Shown here: positions 5,600 through 54,901 of the stretch, one piece after another
Numbering within the stretch: position 1 is the first letter of the stretch
Layout of the letters: each line of letters opens with the position of its first letter
NCBI GenBank assembly: GCA_900321005.1
Contig: ONUF01000019.1
Coordinates: forward strand, 1-55,864
Reading direction: 5' to 3'
DNA from: an uncultured Bacteroidales bacterium
GTDB taxonomy: Bacteria > Bacteroidota > Bacteroidia > Bacteroidales > Paludibacteraceae
Length of the DNA stretch: 55,864 nucleotides
Made by a program: the position numbers and the translations under genes
The notes under the pieces: generated by a model
Databases searched by the model: none
The model's input: only the letters and a program-made list of their open reading frames with translations
What the model was told of the DNA's origin: nothing

Positions 5600-6864
5600 T
5601 ACGCCTTCCATAGATAGAGTTTGTCGCCTCGATGAATCAGTTTATCGGTTTTGAGGGAGAAATATTCTCCTTTCTTCACGCTTTTGGTAGGGTGGCCGTC
5701 GGCATCGCGCATGCCTTCTGCGCGGCACTCATAGACACCGGTGGTCTCGCCTGTGACGAGCAGGTCGGCGCCTTCGTCAATGGATTCAACAGCTTCCACG
5801 AGGAACTCCGCCACAGACAGTTGCTTGAAGAAATTGGTACATTTGGCCGCGTAGATCTTTGTGCGGGTGGCTTTGTTGCCATAAGTATGGGTCCATTCGC
5901 CCAGACGCTGGCCTTGGTAATAGCCGTCCCAGAAACCGCGGTTGAAGACCCGACTGAGGCGTTCGTCCCACTCGGCGATCTTGGGGTCGATGACGGCGTT
6001 ATTACTATACTCGTCGTTTTGCCATGCTTCCACCGCTTCGCGGTAGCAGCGCACGACGGTATCGACATATTCGGCACCGCGCGCACGGCCTTCGATCTTC
6101 AGCACCCGCACGCCTGCGTCAAGCATCTTGTTCAGGAAATGGATGGTCTTCAGGTCCTTGGGCGACATGACATATTGGTTGTCGATGTCCAGTTCGAGGT
6201 CCGAAGACTTATCTTTGACGGTATATCCGCGCCGGCAGACCTGTACGCACGCTCCGCGGTTTGCGCTGAGGCCGTAGTTATTAAGACTGAGGTAGCATTT
6301 GCCGCTGACGGCCATGCAGAGGGCGCCGTGGCAGAACATCTCGATACGGATGGGGTGACCGCTGCGGCCGCAGATATGTTGCGATTGGATATCGCGGTAG
6401 ATAGAGGCTACCTGCTCCATGTTCAACTCGCGCGCCAGTACGACCACGTCGGCAAACTGGGCATAGAACTTCAGCGCCTCGGTGTTGGCGATATTGAGTT
6501 GGGTGGACAGGTGCACTTCCTGACCGATGGAGTTAGCGTACTGCATGACGGCGATGTCGGAAGCGATGACGGCATCCACGCCTACGGCATGGGCATGATC
6601 GACGATCTGACGCATCAGCGGCAGGTCCTCGGGGTACATGACGGTGTTGACCGTCAAGTAGGTCTTCACACCCGCCTCGCGGCAACGCGCCACGATGGTG
6701 GACATGTCGTCCGTGGTGAAGTTGACCGAACTGCGGGCACGCATGTTGAGGTGCTCAATGCCGAAATAGACACTGGTGGCACCGGCTTCTATCGCCGCTG
6801 CCAAACTCTCCCAGCACCCAACGGGAGCCATGATCTCTATTTGTGAGTGTTCAGTATTCAGCAT
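5599..6864 (-). CDS. trhP: Peptidase U32 family protein, TrhP-type tRNA hydroxylation protein
   Basis: 421 residues. The N-terminal half is a U32 barrel ([24 protein letters not shown]). The Cys-rich region [16 protein letters not shown] plus CVQVCRR resembles the iron-sulfur site of the prephenate-dependent 5-hydroxyuridine tRNA-modifying proteins TrhP/Rlh[19 protein letters not shown] is typical of this branch. True protease activity is unlikely. The first residues (MLNTEHSQ) derive from a heptad repeat; the conserved domain starts at about residue 9. The choice between TrhP and a paralogue is inferred. Confidence 0.85.
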
Positions 6865-6876
6865 TCAGTTTTCAGT
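6849..6876. repeat. Heptad repeat, NTTCAGN x4, at the asd/trhP junction
   Basis: GTTCAGT, ATTCAGC, ATTCAGT, TTTCAGT. The trhP ATG (6862-6864) and the asd TGA (6858-6860) both lie in it, producing a 7-nt gene overlap. Confidence 0.86.
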
Positions 6877-7862
6877 AGGCACTCAGCAATCTGGACGGCG
6901 TTTAATGCGGCACCTTTGCGGATCTGGTCGCTCACGCACCAGAAACTCAGTCCGTGGTCATTGGTGAGGTCTTTGCGGATACGTCCCACAAACACCTCGT
7001 CTTTGCCGCTGAGGAACAGCGGCATGGGGTATATCTTCTTGTCCGGTTCGTCCATCAAGACGCATCCTTGGGCATTGGCGAAAGCCTCTCGGGCTTGGGC
7101 GACGCTGACGGGTTGCTCGGTCTCCACCCACACGCTCTCGCTGTGCGCGCGAAGCGAAGGCACGCGTACGCAAGTCGCGCTGACCTTCACATCCGAGTGC
7201 ATGATCTTGCGCGTCTCGTTATACATCTTCATCTCCTCTTTGGTGTAGCCGTTGTCGGTGAAGACATCGATATGGGGGATGAGGTTATATGCAAGTTGGT
7301 ACGCGAATTTCTCGACGGTGGGTTGTTCTCCGTTCAGCACCTGACGGTACTGGTTCTCGAGTTCCTTCATCGCCTGTGCGCCGGCGCCCGATGCAGCCTG
7401 GTAAGTCGATACATGCACGCGCGTGATATGACTCAGGCGCTCGATGGCTTGCAGCGCTACGACCATTTGGATGGTGGTGCAGTTGGGGTTGGCGATGATG
7501 TTGCGCGGACGGACGAAGGCATCGGCAGCATTCACTTCGGGCACAACCAAAGGTACGTCCTCGTCCATGCGAAAAGCCGAGGAGTTATCAATCATGATAG
7601 CGCCGAAGCGGGTGATATCCTCCGCGTATGCACGCGACACGCTCGCGCCCGCGGAAGTAAAAGCAATATCGACGCCCTTGAAAGCGTCGTCGTGTTGCAA
7701 AAGCCGAACCGTATGTTCTTTGCCTTTGAAAAGGTATGTCTTGCCGGCACTGCGTTCCGAACCGAAAAGGCGAAGTTCGGAGACGGGGAATTGCCGCTGT
7801 TCAAGAACAGCGAGCAACTCCTGTCCGACGGCGCCCGAAGCGCCTACGATAGCAATTACCAT
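6858..7862 (-). CDS. asd: Aspartate-semialdehyde dehydrogenase
   Basis: 334 residues, standard length. It reduces aspartyl phosphate to aspartate semialdehyde with NADPH, feeding lysine/diaminopimelate, threonine and methionine synthesis. Visible features: nucleotide-binding [11 protein letters not shown] at residues 7-17, catalytic Cys128 in NPNCTT, and the substrate-binding region around [10 protein letters not shown]. The last residues (LLKTEC) are repeat-encoded. A small winged-helix gene starts just upstream (end 7865). Confidence 0.95.
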
Positions 7863-46290: not shown

Positions 46291-46317
46291 AAAAAAGAGG
46301 CGCGCGCCTCTTTTTTT
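46291..46317 (-). terminator. Terminator after the 134-residue gene (bidirectional hairpin)
   Basis: A perfect GC palindrome at 46297-46310 flanked by A6 on one side and T7 on the other, able to stop both strands. It abuts the stop codon of the minus-strand gene. Confidence 0.85.
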
Positions 46318-46720
46318 ATGCTTCCTCGTCGTCCGTGATGGCGATCAACTTGCAACCGATATGGTCATAGTCTTGGCCATATAGGATGTTTGCGCCGACT
46401 TGCGGGAAGAGTTCCTGCAGGGTATGTTCGTCCTCCGCGAAATAGGAGTCCTCGCGGTACATCGGACCCTTCTTCTCCGGATCGTCCGGGTCTTCTCCGC
46501 CTCCCCAAAGCATCTCGACGTGGTTCTCGATAACCTCTGCATCCTGCATGAACATGCGGTTTTGGTTGTCGATGATGATGTGATCGCGCGATCCGAGGGT
46601 ATAGGGCAGACCCATCTCGCCGCGTAACTCGCGACAGAAATCCTCAATGGTTATCTCCTCCGGAATGGCCATTTCGCGCGTTTCTCCGGTGCGTGTGTTT
46701 ACTAATTCAAAGTGGTACAT
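46316..46720 (-). CDS. Conserved-looking acidic protein of unknown function
   Basis: 134 residues, acidic, no signal or membrane segment. The N-terminal part is a ubiquitin-like alternation (YHFELVNTRTGETREMAIPEEITIEDFCRELRGEM). The C-terminal TLQELFPQVGANILYGQDYDHIGCKLIAI loosely resembles the core of plasmid pRiA4b ORF-3-like proteins, but the match is weak. It follows the HAD phosphatase gene by 24 nt and ends the operon. Function unknown. Confidence 0.7.
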   Translation of the reverse strand: MYHFELVNTRTGETREMAIPEEITIEDFCRELRGEMGLPYTLGSRDHIIIDNQNRMFMQDAEVIENHVEMLWGGGEDPDDPEKKGPMYREDSYFAEDEHTLQELFPQVGANILYGQDYDHIGCKLIAITDDEEA

Positions 46721-49331: not shown

Positions 49332-50582
49332 TTAAACTAATGGGAATAATTCATGGAAGCCTTCATCGTCTGTTGGCAATATCTTCAAATCGGCTAAGCA
49401 TTTGATTTTCATTGCGAGTGCTTTTGATTCAGGAGAGATTCTTCCTTTGTCCTCTTCTTCCTTGATAAAAGTTTCCACCTCGGCAATCTTAACTAATTTC
49501 AAACAACGGGTTTCAAGTTCAGCATCTTTTGCAAAACGGTAGTTATGAATAAAATCGTTGAAAGTATATTCCTCCGAAAAACAAACTCGGACGAAAGAAC
49601 ATAACTCAAACTCAAACCGATTGTCATTACCATCCGTATGAATAATACCGCCGTCAATAATCGTTATTTGAGATTCAGGAAGGCATTTTTTGTCTTCGTT
49701 TCTATTTATACCCAATTCCTCGTCCAAAGCACGTTTAATACATGCAGTGAGTGTTGCTGCTTGATCCTGATTTTCGGCATCATCGTGTGTGTAGGTTTCA
49801 TCATATGAGAAATGCCAATAACCTCCGCTCTGGCAGTTAGAACCGCGATATCCCCATATCAATTCATCTCCATCTCCTCGATTGACAATAACAAAACCTC
49901 CGACCCCTATAGAGTTTAAGAACGGTGAATAGTTGTTTAACTTTACATAACCATTTTTTTGTGCTTTTAATTTGTTGTAAATATTCGTTGTAGTTTTAAA
50001 GGTAAAGTAGTCTGATTCATATACATTAATGGTGCATTCAGTTTCAGTTTGTTCTGGTTTTTCATATACACCATACAAGTACTTGTTAAAGCGCACATTT
50101 CCTGCCTTTATGTCTGTAATAAATTTTTTAGAGGTCTCTACTGCTGTTTTTGCAATAAACTCCTCTACTTCCTCCTTAGGGAGCCCATTAAGCATTAACA
50201 ACTCCTTTAATTGGGTATATAATGTATCGCCAATGCCCTCACTTTTCATTTCTTCATCATTGAGTTTAACAGGAAGAAAACCATGTTTTACCAACTCATC
50301 TTTTTTGTTCTCAGGAAAAGGAATAACAAATTGCCCATTCTGCACTTTGTGCTGAAAATAATTTTTTCGTAAATCCTTATTGCTGCAAAGGACATCATAG
50401 TTTAGATTTTCCTTATCAAATTTATCAAGATTCGCTTGGAAATCAGCGATGCCATTTTTTATAGTTCTCTCACGGTGGTTCTTTCTCCATTTTTGAATAA
50501 TAGCATTTATACACCAAGGAATGATGAAGCCACAGCTTACCACTTCAATGAGTAACCATATTGTAAAATTAGAGTATTCCAT
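49332..50582 (-). CDS. Membrane-anchored Nudix-fold protein
   Basis: 416 residues. One N-terminal transmembrane helix (about residues 7-29), a basic stretch, a middle alpha/beta region, then a Nudix-like domain: FLNSIGVGGFVIVNRGDGDELIWGYRG, and a Nudix box ending RALDEELGI at residues 284-292, where consensus is REUxEExGU; the key paired acids E288 and E289 are present but the first Glu is Ala. It probably hydrolyses a nucleoside diphosphate-linked ligand at the inner face of the membrane. AT-rich, in an accessory block. Confidence 0.78.
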   Translation of the reverse strand: MEYSNFTIWLLIEVVSCGFIIPWCINAIIQKWRKNHRERTIKNGIADFQANLDKFDKENLNYDVLCSNKDLRKNYFQHKVQNGQFVIPFPENKKDELVKHGFLPVKLNDEEMKSEGIGDTLYTQLKELLMLNGLPKEEVEEFIAKTAVETSKKFITDIKAGNVRFNKYLYGVYEKPEQTETECTINVYESDYFTFKTTTNIYNKLKAQKNGYVKLNNYSPFLNSIGVGGFVIVNRGDGDELIWGYRGSNCQSGGYWHFSYDETYTHDDAENQDQAATLTACIKRALDEELGINRNEDKKCLPESQITIIDGGIIHTDGNDNRFEFELCSFVRVCFSEEYTFNDFIHNYRFAKDAELETRCLKLVKIAEVETFIKEEEDKGRISPESKALAMKIKCLADLKILPTDDEGFHELFPLV

Positions 50583-50595
50583 AGTTGAAGATTAT

Positions 50596-51807
50596 TTATT
50601 GTTTAAAACGTTTGTTAATATATTTGCGAACGATAGATTGCGCATAACATAAATAGAATTGTAATTTTGCATTCTCTGAATGTGATACTTCGGATATAAG
50701 ATCCGGACTAAACTGCTTATTAGTGTAGATAACTCTGAAATCTGATCGTTCTTTTACTGATTCTTTCGGCTGAGCAGAATATAGAAGATAGCATTTCATT
50801 TCTTCTTCATCAAATTCAAACATAACGTCTGTAAAATGCGTTTCTCCATCTGTGGGGATACCAACGGACTGTTTTAGTTGATTATCAATTAATTTCGATA
50901 AAGTGGCACAGTGTATTTTACTATTGTTATGGAAAACATTTTCTAAGTTTAAATTTAAGCGAATACCATAAGGCTCTGTATTTTGATGCATGTAGTATTC
51001 TCCCTGTTCCGCGACGCCTCCTACATTCTTAATAAGACATCCATAAAGTCCTATCGAAGAAGAAAGGCATACAAAATCATCAATGTAATTCTTTTTATTC
51101 TCTGGTTTGGAATTTGTTTTGTAGGAAGCCTCAATGATGTCTGGGTAGACGCTTTTCACATACATGTAAATTGCATCTATGAGCCTTTTTGTACTCATGT
51201 CGGATTTTATTATCTCTATTTCAAGATTAGACGCTTCTAACCGTGCTCCAACATCCTTTCGACTTTTAGCAAGTGTGTTCAGTATAAGGGTAGGCGGATT
51301 GTCTCCCTTACTTATTTCATCCAAATGAAATTCTTTTATTTTTCGCATGAATATGTGTTCGACATCTTCCCTTTGACGGCCGGATGTTTTGATAATCTCA
51401 TCGAATAGTTCTTTGATCTTTTGTAGCTTGGGAAAAGCCTGAACGTTTTCTGAGAAAGATCTGTTGAAATCATAAACATATGTTTTTTCCAGCAATCGTA
51501 GAGTGATTAAATTTTTCATGTAACCACAATCCTCATGGTCATAAAAAGCAAAACCGTTGATTCCAAAGTTGATTTCTTCTGCTTTCGAAGGTGCTAAAAA
51601 TTCTTTTCGCAGATGTTTCCTACGATTCTCCATTCCGATACTCAACACAATGGACACTATAGTGGAGGCTACAGCAACTATTATTGGCGTCCAATACGAG
51701 TGTAAATCAAATGCTTCTTTGGCTGTCCAAAGAGCAAGTAGGGCAATGGCAATTATTATTATTACCTGCATTACGTAAGAAAGATACTTTTTGAGTTTAT
51801 TTTTCAT
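50596..51807 (-). CDS. Membrane-anchored Nudix-like protein lacking catalytic residues
   Basis: 403 residues with two N-terminal membrane helices (residues 10-28 and 38-58). It has the same layout as the downstream Nudix gene: an I-x-x-S-D-x-x-T stretch near residue 200, SSSIGLYGCLIKN (compare NSIGVGGFVIVN) and, 50 residues on, ATLSKLIDNQLKQSVGI where its partner has ATLTACIKRALDEELGI. The Arg and the acidic residues of the Nudix box are gone (N, K, Q, S), so it should be inactive and may act as a sensor or regulator. The homology call is mine, by eye. Confidence 0.7.
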   Translation of the reverse strand: MKNKLKKYLSYVMQVIIIIAIALLALWTAKEAFDLHSYWTPIIVAVASTIVSIVLSIGMENRRKHLRKEFLAPSKAEEINFGINGFAFYDHEDCGYMKNLITLRLLEKTYVYDFNRSFSENVQAFPKLQKIKELFDEIIKTSGRQREDVEHIFMRKIKEFHLDEISKGDNPPTLILNTLAKSRKDVGARLEASNLEIEIIKSDMSTKRLIDAIYMYVKSVYPDIIEASYKTNSKPENKKNYIDDFVCLSSSIGLYGCLIKNVGGVAEQGEYYMHQNTEPYGIRLNLNLENVFHNNSKIHCATLSKLIDNQLKQSVGIPTDGETHFTDVMFEFDEEEMKCYLLYSAQPKESVKERSDFRVIYTNKQFSPDLISEVSHSENAKLQFYLCYAQSIVRKYINKRFKQ

Positions 51808-51839: not shown

Positions 51840-51871
51840 CAAAAGTATCACTTTTTTTTGATATACGCAAA
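51840..51871 (-). promoter_or_regulatory. Promoter of the Nudix-like pair (TTTG - 20 nt - TACTTTTG)
   Basis: -33 TTTG is the complement of 51868-51871; -7 TACTTTTG is the complement of 51840-51847. It lies just past the PPP phosphatase stop, so the AT-rich genes can be transcribed separately from the kinase operon. Confidence 0.77.
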
Positions 51872-51885
51872 TTTTTATGAAAATA

Positions 51886-52572
51886 TCATTGAATATTCAA
51901 TGATTTTGGATTGTCAAGCAGGCAATCGACGCAGAGGATACGGGCGGAGACAAGGGTAATGTCTTCTTTGGGAGTATGCCCGATGATCTGCGTGACGGGT
52001 GTGTTGGCAAACAGGTTGTGCTCGGGCAGTATCCACGACCGAATCCATACCGGCGAATGGGTAGGGGACACACCGTACACATCCGGGTCAACAGTCACAT
52101 TGCTGCTGAAGGTAAACGCCTCTTTGTTGGTCCGCCACAACTCATTGATTTGCTGCGCAATCACTTGCGGACTCTCGCCGTGATACATGCCGATATATTT
52201 CTCGTACCACTCCTTCGTCACGCCGGCATGCGACACCAACGTCTTCTCGTCTATTGCATAGGCTACACCATAGAAAAACGGCTCCTTTTCTGCGAATAGT
52301 TGCCGGTATGTTTCGCGGTATTCGGGGTGACTGAAACGGCTCTTGTAATCCTTGTCCAGAAGGTAGTTCAAGTCATGGTTGCCGTACAATAGGATAGTCC
52401 CCGGATGCGCTTGGGCGAAGGCGACAATATCCTTGAAGTTAGCGATGATTTCCTCTTGGGATTTGCCGTCTTTGGAATCAAAATAGTCGCCTACAAAGAT
52501 GTTCGTCGCATCCTCGCGCACCAGTGATTTCCACCGGTCTAAACCATGTATGTCGCCTATGATATTATACAT
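51886..52572 (-). CDS. PPP-family (calcineurin-like) phosphoprotein phosphatase
   Basis: 228 residues from the ATG at 52572 (MYNIIGDIHGLDRW); an alternative ATG at 52602 overlaps the kinase stop as TAATG and would add ten residues. Metal and phosphate ligands of Ser/Thr phosphatases are in order: GDIHG (6-10), GDYFD (28-32), GNHD (64-67), SHAG and GHTP. With the upstream kinase fusion it makes a likely kinase/phosphatase pair. Other calcineurin-like phosphoesterase substrates (for example dinucleoside polyphosphates) remain possible. Confidence 0.85.
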   Translation of the reverse strand: MYNIIGDIHGLDRWKSLVREDATNIFVGDYFDSKDGKSQEEIIANFKDIVAFAQAHPGTILLYGNHDLNYLLDKDYKSRFSHPEYRETYRQLFAEKEPFFYGVAYAIDEKTLVSHAGVTKEWYEKYIGMYHGESPQVIAQQINELWRTNKEAFTFSSNVTVDPDVYGVSPTHSPVWIRSWILPEHNLFANTPVTQIIGHTPKEDITLVSARILCVDCLLDNPKSLNIQ

Positions 52573-52601
52573 TACTATGTTTCGTGTTTGTGACATAGGC
52601 A

Positions 52602-54329
52602 TTATGCATTAAAGCCGATGCGGGGGCGGGAATCGGTATGGAGGGAGGATTGGTGGTGGTTGATGCTATTGGTGAGATGGCGTTGGGCGATGGGGACATC
52701 TTCGATGGCGGCCATGAGGGCGGCTTCGTTGACGACGAAGGGGACATCGGCGCTGGCATAGTGCACTGTCATCTTTGCTAAGGCAGGGATGTCGATATCT
52801 TCGGCCAAAGGTCTATTGCGGAGATACATCTCGAAGAGACGCTGGCGCATTTTTTCGTCTGGAGCGGGTATCTCAATCTGGATGTCGAATCGTCCTGCGC
52901 GGAGGGCGGCCGGATCGATGATATCTTTTCTATTGGTAGTACCTACGACCAAAATGCCGCGTTTATGGCATTCATTGAATTCCGCAAGGAACTGGTTCAC
53001 CTCATCGTTTCGGGCACGCTCTGTTTCTTCGGTAGAACGCTTACTAAGGAGGGCATCTACCTCATCGATGCAGATGATACAATGTTCGCAAGTCGCTGCG
53101 GCTTGGAACATTTCTTTGATATTCTGCGAGGTCTCATGAATATACGCGCTACCAAGGCTGGCGGAGGTGATGAACTTCATGGGCCAATGCATTTCTTCGG
53201 CTATCTTGCTTGCGAAATAGGTCTTACCGCATCCCGGAGGGCCATATAAGAGGACCCCATTGGGCAGTTGCAGTCTGTACTGCTCCGCTTTCTCCGGATG
53301 CTGGAGTGGCCATAGAACATGTTGGGACATTTTTTGCTTCAAATCATCCATGCCGGCAATAGAAGCAAAGCCCTTGATTTCGTCCACATTGCGTGCATTC
53401 CACAGCGAGACATCTTCGGCAATTTGATCCAGTTCCTTATTTTTCGTATGCAAGACATGCAGGAGGGTCTTAATGTTCGCTTCGCCTTTGAGCGCCATAT
53501 CCATGGCTACGAAGAGGTTTGCGGCGGCCTGGGAGGACCCGATTTTGGAAGGACGCAGCGGTTCTACGATGTCGGTAGAAGGATGCGCCTTTCGCCATTC
53601 ATTCATCTTCAGATGTCGCGCCACAGCCGGCATCTCGGGCGTAAGCGGGCAGTCGCTCCATGGTTTTTTGCCGGAGAGCATGGTGAAGATTACCGCGCCG
53701 ATAGAGAAGATATCGTCGATACCGCTCACTTCCTGTCTGCTTAACAGGTCGGAATGGGTGTAGTAGGGGCTGAGTTTCTCGAACTGCTTGGCCGAAGAGA
53801 GGCGGCGCGTACCATTCTCGTTATACTCAACGGCATGCTCCAAGTCGAACAGTTTGGCTGTGAGTTTGCCGTCCTGATCGGATTCGAGGAGGATATTCTG
53901 CGGCACGATATCCAGATGGCATAACTGATGCGCATTCAGATGCCGCACGGCTTGGAGAAGTCCAAGGGTGATATCCATGATCTCTCGCAGAGTAAGCGTT
54001 CTTTTCTCATCGATATATTGGGAGAGCAGTTTGCCGCGAGAGAGCGGAAAGACCATATACGTGATGTCGTAATAGAACTTTCTGATACGACTGAAGGTCG
54101 TCATATGCATCAGGTTTTCACATGTGCCCAGTTTGCGATACGCCCATACTTCTTTCGGTTCCTGCCCATGCAGCAGTTCGGTCGGAGTAGCCTGCATGTC
54201 ATAGAGTTTCATGAAGAACTGGTTATTCTTCTCGTCCGCTACGCAGTAAGTCTGCGTATAAGCTTTTTTTGTAATGGGGTACAAAATGGTATAATCCCCA
54301 ATGGTATGACCTTGTGCAAATTCTATCAT
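52602..54329 (-). CDS. Ser/Thr protein kinase fused to an AAA+ ATPase
   Basis: 575 residues from the ATG at 54329, which overlaps the tyrosine-phosphatase stop as ATGA; 54353 is an alternative. Kinase domain, residues 10-270: Lys41 in FFMKLYD, catalytic loop HLDIVPQN (Asp140, Asn145; HLD instead of HRD), metal motif DLE at 162-164 instead of DFG, and GIDDIFSIGAVIFTMLSG. AAA+ domain, 320-550: Walker A GPPGCGKT (363-370), Walker B IICIDEVD (417-424), GTTNRKD, and Arg fingers in AALRAGRFD, of the Cdc48/katanin-like classic clade. The C-terminal tail (NSINHHQSSLHTDS) is low complexity. Confidence 0.88.
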   Translation of the reverse strand: MIEFAQGHTIGDYTILYPITKKAYTQTYCVADEKNNQFFMKLYDMQATPTELLHGQEPKEVWAYRKLGTCENLMHMTTFSRIRKFYYDITYMVFPLSRGKLLSQYIDEKRTLTLREIMDITLGLLQAVRHLNAHQLCHLDIVPQNILLESDQDGKLTAKLFDLEHAVEYNENGTRRLSSAKQFEKLSPYYTHSDLLSRQEVSGIDDIFSIGAVIFTMLSGKKPWSDCPLTPEMPAVARHLKMNEWRKAHPSTDIVEPLRPSKIGSSQAAANLFVAMDMALKGEANIKTLLHVLHTKNKELDQIAEDVSLWNARNVDEIKGFASIAGMDDLKQKMSQHVLWPLQHPEKAEQYRLQLPNGVLLYGPPGCGKTYFASKIAEEMHWPMKFITSASLGSAYIHETSQNIKEMFQAAATCEHCIICIDEVDALLSKRSTEETERARNDEVNQFLAEFNECHKRGILVVGTTNRKDIIDPAALRAGRFDIQIEIPAPDEKMRQRLFEMYLRNRPLAEDIDIPALAKMTVHYASADVPFVVNEAALMAAIEDVPIAQRHLTNSINHHQSSLHTDSRPRIGFNA

Positions 54330-54847
54330 AAGGTTTTGTTTATTTTGCGCCATTCAAATTCGCGGATATAACTGTCGAGGATGGCTTGGCAGGCGCGGTG
54401 GATGTCGCGGTAGGCGGCATCGAAATTACGGGTGTACCAAGGGTCTGAGACATCGCGTTCCTCGCCCGCCCACTGCATCATGAGCGACTCTTTCTCGCCC
54501 GGGTCGTAGAACTCCATCACATCGTCATAATCGACGTGCCCGATGCTCGGGATATAGGACAGGTTCGCGCGGTCGGCGCAGATGATCTTATCGAAATGCT
54601 CATATTCCTCGCGCGTCATCTCGTGGGCTTTATGCGGTCCGTAAGGGATGCCGTGTTCGCGCAGTTGGAGTTTGGCGGGCAGGTAGATGTCGTTACCGTC
54701 TTCTTCGTCCGAGACACCGGCTGAGGCTATCTCGAAGCGGTCTTCCAGCCCTGCTTGCCGCACGAGGTGCTTGAAGATATACTCCGCCATCGGCGAACGG
54801 CATATGTTGCCGTGGCAGACAAATAATATACGTACGACTCGTTTCAT
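54326..54847 (-). CDS. Low-molecular-weight protein tyrosine phosphatase
   Basis: 173 residues from the ATG at 54847 (MKRVVRILFVCHGNICRS); an ATG at 54871 lies in the promoter and is rejected. The P-loop C-x5-R-S is at residues 11-18, and the general acid Asp is in DPWYTRNFD. It dephosphorylates phosphotyrosine or related phosphoesters in the cytoplasm. In Bacteroidales such genes are often alone or beside polysaccharide kinases; here it is first in a coupled operon with a kinase-AAA fusion and a PPP phosphatase. Confidence 0.93.
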   Translation of the reverse strand: MKRVVRILFVCHGNICRSPMAEYIFKHLVRQAGLEDRFEIASAGVSDEEDGNDIYLPAKLQLREHGIPYGPHKAHEMTREEYEHFDKIICADRANLSYIPSIGHVDYDDVMEFYDPGEKESLMMQWAGEERDVSDPWYTRNFDAAYRDIHRACQAILDSYIREFEWRKINKTL

Positions 54848-54869
54848 CTCTGTGCCAATTTTGCGCTGC

Positions 54870-54901
54870 AAAATTACAACAAAAATTGCATATATGCAAA
54901 T
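54870..54901 (-). promoter_or_regulatory. Phospho-signalling operon promoter (TTTG - 20 nt - TAATTTTG)
   Basis: -33 TTTG is the complement of 54898-54901; -7 TAATTTTG is the complement of 54870-54877, just upstream of the tyrosine-phosphatase start. Confidence 0.78.

Follow-up and report, generated by a model that had tools for sequence, protein, structure and literature searches.

The window, by which we mean the whole stretch of 55,864 nucleotides analysed here, carries on its minus strand a compact head-to-tail series of three genes. The first (54,326-54,847) encodes an LMW protein-tyrosine phosphatase (PTP; Pfam LMWPc, 9.9e-27). The second (52,602-54,353) is a 583-aa ORF in which a kinase domain (Pfam Pkinase, 2.4e-20) and an AAA+ domain (Pfam AAA, 9.5e-34) are fused in one reading frame, and we refer to this kinase-AAA+ fusion as KAAA. 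The third (51,886-52,602) encodes a PPP-like, calcineurin-type phosphoesterase (Pfam Metallophos, 7.9e-10). A sequence-only reading of this DNA had placed all three genes in the range 52,602-54,847, which takes in PTP and KAAA only, without the PPP-like gene. The likely start of KAAA is Met9 of the long ORF (ATG at 54,329), since the corresponding ATG is where the proteins of its nearest orthologs, L176 and L178, begin. With this start, the ATGA overlap that had been claimed between PTP and KAAA is real in the window, but it is not conserved, because L176 and L178 have about 16-17 bases between the PTP stop and the KAAA start. The claimed TAATG overlap between KAAA and the PPP-like gene is also real and is kept in L176 and L178, both orthologs with a PPP gene; there, the PPP-like gene starts about 10 codons further in.

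A pattern scan with a consensus that we take to be that of Bacteroidota-type promoters gave 16 matches in the whole window, both strands included. One of them, TTTG-N20-TAATTTTG (54,869-54,900, minus strand), lies upstream of PTP, and a second, TTTG-N20-TACTTTTG (51,840-51,871, minus strand), lies upstream of the gene M4. Since this second promoter-like site is located downstream of the PPP-like gene, the operon proper probably consists of PTP, KAAA and PPP, and the site suggests that M4 onward forms a separate transcript. The GC content is 35-36% for M4 and M5 and 49-55% for the operon. A perfect 14-bp palindrome, TTGCATATATGCAA (54,886-54,899), overlaps the promoter-like site upstream of PTP and is perhaps an operator; it was not seen upstream of PTP in L176, L178 or L197, whose PTP comes immediately after the stop codon of c10.

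In the KAAA protein, alignments of 12, 40 and 51 homologs delimit a kinase region at about residues 16-300 (53,454-54,308, minus strand), and alignments together with Foldseek matches to p97, PAN and FtsH delimit a classic-clade AAA+ region at about residues 328-567 (52,653-53,372, minus strand). The AlphaFold2 model of the fusion has a mean pLDDT of 84.6 and a pTM of 0.54, the linker (305-324) being of low confidence. The AAA+ part carries GPPGCGKT, D430-E431, N474, R485, R488 and a Tyr in pore loop 1, and thus the marks of a classic-clade unfoldase: Walker A and B, sensor 1, two Arg fingers and an aromatic pore loop. In sequence searches of the PDB it matches p97/CDC48 best, and the first 50 matches that Foldseek lists comprise p97/CDC48, PAN, FtsH and motors related to these.

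Searching for the same architecture across genomes revealed a real family. Full-length KAAA was found in 30 of the 178 genomes of the genus, at 31 places and with the window's genome included, and in 5 of 394 other genomes of a phylum sample. The fusion had been called rare, which does not apply to its home genus. No description of the architecture was found in the open-access papers searched, and the family is apparently undescribed, as had been suggested from the sequence. The genus copy nearest to the window's is that of relative G206, and a contig of an uncultured Bacteroidales bacterium holds a copy whose best segment is 81% identical. A search that detects close relatives only confirmed none in viruses. 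Matches in phage records were partial (at least 80% of the protein covered in 0 of 176), and 1 of 1,995 matching plasmid records covered at least 80% of KAAA.

A tree of the 51 full-length proteins plus the internally deleted L041 (quick search, no bootstrap) groups largely by genomic partner: PTP (12 loci), a YbjN-like chaperone with ClpP (12) and Hsp70, mostly with TerB (11), the ClpP, YbjN, Hsp70 and TerB partners being named by Pfam. A branch with an SH-aLRT of 100 separates the PTP clade from the rest, although, according to a warning of the tool, the clade's long branch meets L067. The Hsp70 rows have an SH-aLRT of 99 and the YbjN-ClpP rows require two changes on the tree; the label Hsp70-TerB also covers L043, which is without TerB, and L018, in which the contig includes only part of the Hsp70 gene. 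The partner labels can be placed on the tree with 9 changes; the mean after shuffling is 32.4, and none of 200 shuffles gave a value as low. All five KAAA copies of the phylum sample, held out from this analysis, adjoin Hsp70, four of them with TerB. Because the partners differ by clade, the constant part is the motor and not the phosphatases.

Two sets of neighbours were discarded as partners. The loci labelled Type IV (L049, L166-L168) share S-adenosylmethionine synthetase, an aquaporin-type channel, a BACON-domain protein, the ribosomal proteins L13, S9 and S2, and EF-Ts (L168 scanned), and given these genes they probably share an insertion site only. The M24 peptidase and Hsp90 genes that flank most ClpP-clade loci may likewise be site neighbours; L042 is without them. 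In L042, the YbjN-KAAA-ClpP trio occupies the recJ site that carries PTP-type KAAA modules in other genomes.

The kinase part of the window's KAAA keeps, in long-ORF numbering, K49, E68, H146-x-D148, N153 and D170, which are the VAIK Lys, helix C Glu, HxD Asp, Asn and Mg-binding Asp of a Hanks-type kinase. The Lys41, Asp140 and Asn145 named in the sequence-only reading are the correct residues when counted from Met9 (Lys49, Asp148 and Asn153 of the long ORF), and HLD and DLE are indeed present, with the Arg of HRD and the Gly of DFG replaced. There is no APE motif; YTHSDL is found instead. HLD and DLE occur in all 12 kinase rows of the PTP clade. The HLD, the DLE and the missing APE raise the possibility that the domain is a pseudokinase-like N-domain that binds clients or adaptors, the motor alone being enzymatically active. 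Kinase residues do decay in several members of the family, whereas AAA+ residues do not. The catalytic Asp is replaced by Glu in 7 of the 11 Hsp70-TerB rows and by Asn or Gly in L075 and L066, and the DFG Asp is lost in L066, L068, L057 and L182; Walker A GPPGCGK, Walker B DE, N474 of sensor 1 and R485 are identical in 51/51 full-length proteins, and R488 is kept in 49 of them. Catalysis may hence not be the conserved role of the domain, which is degenerate in these other members. In the window's own clade, however, these five residues (Lys, Glu, Asp, Asn and Asp) are intact in 12/12 kinases, that of L041 included, and we consider the pseudokinase explanation unlikely.

The PTP clade is present in 12 genomes, counting G018, which holds L041. 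PTP lies directly upstream of KAAA in 9 of the 12 loci, in three flanking contexts: HAD-flanked (the window, L176, L178), recJ (L040, L172, L173, L175) and ftsW-murG-like (L180, L041). In L177, L179 and L181, KAAA follows c10 without PTP in between, and PTP is elsewhere in the genome. In 8/12 loci the gene immediately preceding PTP or KAAA encodes c10, a tandem-AAA protein, and a ninth, L176, retains a C-terminal fragment of it; the c10 of the window's genome is outside the window, on contig C8. After KAAA comes PPP in three loci (the window, L176, L178), the receiver-like c11 in seven, and neither in two (L172, where c11 is reduced to fragments, and L181). We call c11 receiver-like from motifs read by eye: Pfam assigned it to no family even at E values up to 10, the PDB search gave one chance-level match (E=0.13), and its AlphaFold2 model has a pLDDT of 42.

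Co-occurrence in the 178 genomes was assessed with Fisher tests, which count related species as independent. The KAAA of this clade (12 carriers) is found together with c10 (20 carriers) in 10 genomes (p=1.6e-9), with c11 (12 carriers) in 7 (p=5.5e-7) and with close PPP (5 carriers) in 3 (p=0.002), so that c10 is the strongest co-occurring gene of the three tested. Here c11 was counted at 55% identity or more, which dropped three genomes at 34-36% and the fragments of G200, and close PPP denotes at least 80% identity, weaker matches being present in 16 more genomes. In the control, ClpP-clade KAAA (12 carriers) and c10 (20 carriers) are together in 2 genomes (p=0.40). ClpP-clade KAAA also occurs with c11 in 5 of its 12 genomes (p=3.5e-4), and the control is therefore not clean for every gene.

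PTP has the P-loop CHGNICRS and a later SDPW, matching the CX5R(S/T) and DP acid motifs of LMW-PTPs, and its relatives in the PDB are LMW-PTPs (best E=9.6e-24). The PPP-like protein has GDIHG, GDYFDS, GNHD, SHAG and GHT; set by eye against the PPP signature (GDxHG, GDxVDRG, GNH(D/E), HGG), it shows the metal-ligand positions, and the Arg of the second motif is absent. It gave no match to PDB sequences at E<=0.01. The distributions of the two phosphatases bear on the claim that kinase and phosphatases make a closed phospho-switch. PTP homologs are present in 124 of the 178 genus genomes, usually as a single copy, against 12 for the window's KAAA clade. PPP adjoins c11, or is one gene away from it, without neighbouring KAAA in G132, G050 and G015, and in G132 and G050 c10, PTP, c11 and PPP are together without an adjoining KAAA; in G050 and G015, a KAAA of the ClpP clade is present at another place in the genome. 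With PTP adjacent to KAAA in 9/12 loci of the clade but this widespread without it, and PPP in only 3/12 loci, the closed phospho-switch is only partly supported and weaker than had been claimed.

PTP could then simply be a core gene, with a mobile KAAA cassette having settled next to it, and the kinase and the phosphatases would not form one switch. Besides the abundance of PTP, this is consistent with recJ-PTP arrangements lacking both c10 and KAAA (L203, L206), with a KAAA remnant beside PTP in L199, and with the three loci in which PTP is missing between c10 and KAAA and present elsewhere in the genome. A cassette settling beside a fixed gene fits less well with PTP being directly upstream of KAAA in three different flanking contexts, and we hold this explanation as possible but doubtful. 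Given how common PTP is in the genus without KAAA, its adjacency may still partly reflect a shared insertion site.

Downstream of the operon are variable tail genes: in the window M4 (50,596-51,807, minus strand, 35% GC), with a hydrophobic N-terminal segment, and M5 (49,332-50,582, minus strand), which has such a segment too and, in addition, a Nudix-like box, all read by eye. M5 has no Pfam match, and the Pfam scan assigned no family to M4-M6. Homologs of M4 are found in L040 and L200, and the M4-M5 pair stands with KAAA in L040 and without it in L200. A small acidic protein of 134 aa (46,316-46,720, minus strand), whose link to the operon is uncertain, has no Pfam match either. Its relatives lie between PPP and c11 (L231), between c10 and PTP (L196) and after c10 (G000, contig C8), and it is present in 13/178 genus genomes, including 6 of the 7 whose PPP is at least 57% identical. 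In L199, a tail gene beside PTP (6573-7454) begins with KAAA residues 9-46 (68% identical), the scar of a module deletion.

Several tail genes of relatives resemble effectors, namely a SMODS-associated 4TM-LicD in L178 (Pfam 1.1e-24; PADLOC 4TM effector, 1.7e-20), CHAT-TPR in L041 (1.5e-53) and, by similarity, in L180, and, as weaker matches below the Pfam cut-offs, a protein of TIR-like type in L179 and an NTPase of STAND-like type in L176. Together with the patchy distribution of KAAA, the BREX genes that adjoin the module on plasmid pHALHY02 and the pair L178/L197, in which three adjoining genes are 98-99% identical while KAAA and PPP are present in L178 and both absent in L197, they could indicate a system for defence against phages or for cell suicide, in which the tail effectors are exchangeable. 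We find this improbable. Such tails also stand where KAAA is missing (4TM-LicD in L197, and L200), others are ordinary (an ABC transporter in L175), and the window's M4-M5 have their own promoter-like site and low GC. Among the PADLOC matches of KAAA listed (25 of 43), each spans one domain, and PADLOC gave no match for M4-M6, PPP or PTP. WD40 (L173) and pentapeptide proteins (L040, L180) are also among the tail genes. As some of these genes are found where KAAA is missing, they may mark an insertion hotspot rather than being effectors of KAAA itself.

KAAA of the window ends in RIGFNA (52,605-52,622, minus strand), a version of the [IV]G[FY] tail common to c10 and most KAAA proteins. This motif plus 0-6 residues ends 38 of the 39 full-length KAAA proteins outside the ClpP clade and none of the 12 inside it, compared with 1 of 805 background genes, the background being our own ORF calls of at least 70 aa and not a whole proteome. 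Duplicate loci (L054, L064), genes cut at locus ends and, on both sides, kinase-less AAA homologs were left out. This pattern (38/51 KAAA against 1/805) was settled on after seeing the data; an alternative, [IVL]GF plus at most 4 residues, gives 32/51 and 5/805. Since the pattern was chosen post hoc, p-values for it are descriptive and the held-out proteins from outside the genus are a fairer test, and the tail as defined ends two of these five, with KFGF in one and none in two. The c10-like proteins have 20 distinct C-termini, and IGF or VGF followed by 0-2 residues closes 18 of them, the exceptions being L236, cut by the contig end, and the remote L067, whose KAAA is also without the tail and has no ClpP neighbour. 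In the ClpP clade, motifs such as VVQGL take the place of this tail, and the clade's own ClpP is 46-49% identical to the housekeeping ClpP, next to which the window's genome encodes a ClpX-like protein (named by eye) with VGF. Joint changes of ClpP and the tail are limited to two independent pairs on the tree, a number too small to be significant.

Some other proteins at these loci have similar ends. The single background match (L097, 14107-14859, at a KAAA locus labelled as a Clostridiales MAG) is a non-AAA protein that ends in PVGFTQSYE; its N-terminal part contains hydrophobic segments, and a YbjN-like domain can be made out by eye. VSVGY is the C-terminus of c8, a protein of the Hsp70-TerB module, in L252 (3885-4805) and likewise in L253 (11800-12702).

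Proteasomal ATPases carry C-terminal tails; those of KAAA and c10 are placed likewise and are chemically like the ClpX loop. According to PMC8745299, (L/I/V)-G-(F/L) is the ClpP-docking motif, in a loop, of Clp ATPases, and a linear IGF peptide has very little activity on ClpP. KAAA and c10, which belong to different AAA+ clades, might be unfoldases sharing a C-terminal Ile-Gly-Phe docking tail, with the housekeeping ClpP serving several accessory motors as their hub, a kinase-gated one among them, and with the clade that has its own ClpP having replaced the tail; we think this quite unlikely as a whole. If true, it would mean a kinase-controlled Clp protease in Bacteroidota.

The gene order, the domains, the intact ATPase residues, the clade-specific neighbours, the co-occurrence with c10 and the shared tail are directly observed. 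The motor and its proteostasis partners being constant and the phosphatases not, we read KAAA as a kinase-gated unfoldase, possibly one feeding a protease, and the neighbours of the other clades (ClpP, YbjN, Hsp70) argue for it. So do the fixed AAA residues, the intact kinase residues of the PTP clade, the grouping of the tree by partner, PTP upstream in three contexts, KAAA and PPP being gained or lost together between L178 and L197, the association with c10, and the tail. KAAA would form a hexameric ring of the p97/PAN type, with the Hanks-type kinase domain as an N-terminal module reading clients or signals, and client proteins would be threaded through the aromatic pore loop. Its own kinase would set the phosphorylation state of KAAA or of its clients, and the co-encoded tyrosine phosphatase, in the window also the PPP-like phosphatase, would reset it. 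KAAA may also share a pathway with c10, encoded elsewhere in the genome. More speculatively, and as the boldest idea here, the Ile-Gly-Phe tail might dock on ClpP and clients would then be degraded. That the operon makes such a kinase-gated, phosphatase-reset machine, in one pathway with c10, is a tentative proposal whose chances we put somewhat below even. Bacterial AAA+ unfoldases are mostly regulated by adaptors or expression; a kinase built into the motor next to phosphatases would, if true, place protein unfolding under direct control by phosphorylation. Natural experiments on this point exist within the family, in clades that swap partners, in the loss of kinase residues and in the tail, absent from 12/12 copies beside their own ClpP.

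Several known systems share parts of this organization. According to PMC7159879, the MoxR-vWA and GTPase conflict systems combine a chaperone-like ATPase with variable effectors, some variants having Hsp70 or a kinase. The locus resembles them in its chaperone-like ATPase and variable tail genes; no MoxR or vWA gene was found in the scanned neighbours. The TerY-P triad, as presented in PMC11090510, consists of a TerY vWA protein, a PP2C phosphatase and a Ser/Thr kinase. It too has a kinase and a phosphatase in one module, and TerB adjoins one KAAA clade, but the TerY-P kinase is fused to a zinc ribbon or OB fold and that of KAAA to AAA+; none of the scanned window neighbours or scanned genes of relatives is a vWA, PP2C or STK-ZnR gene. 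From IetAS, IetA is the best PADLOC match of KAAA (1.7e-35), for the AAA part only, with an NCBIfam score of 109.3 against a cut-off of 510. IetS is a protease, and no protease was found among the neighbours scanned, which were the PTP, PPP, M4-M6, HAD and 134-aa genes, M4-M6 having no family. With the Clp ATPases (ClpX, ClpC), KAAA shares the [IV]-G-F tripeptide and, in another clade, an adjoining ClpP-like protease gene; the tripeptide is at the extreme C-terminus in KAAA and not in an internal loop, and the AAA module is nearest another AAA+ clade. The AAA+ module itself matches p97/CDC48, PAN and FtsH, with the same Walker A and B, sensor 1 and both Arg fingers. By Pfam, KAAA has no p97 N-domain and no membrane or M41 protease part, and it differs from these motors in combining a single AAA ring with a kinase as its N-domain.
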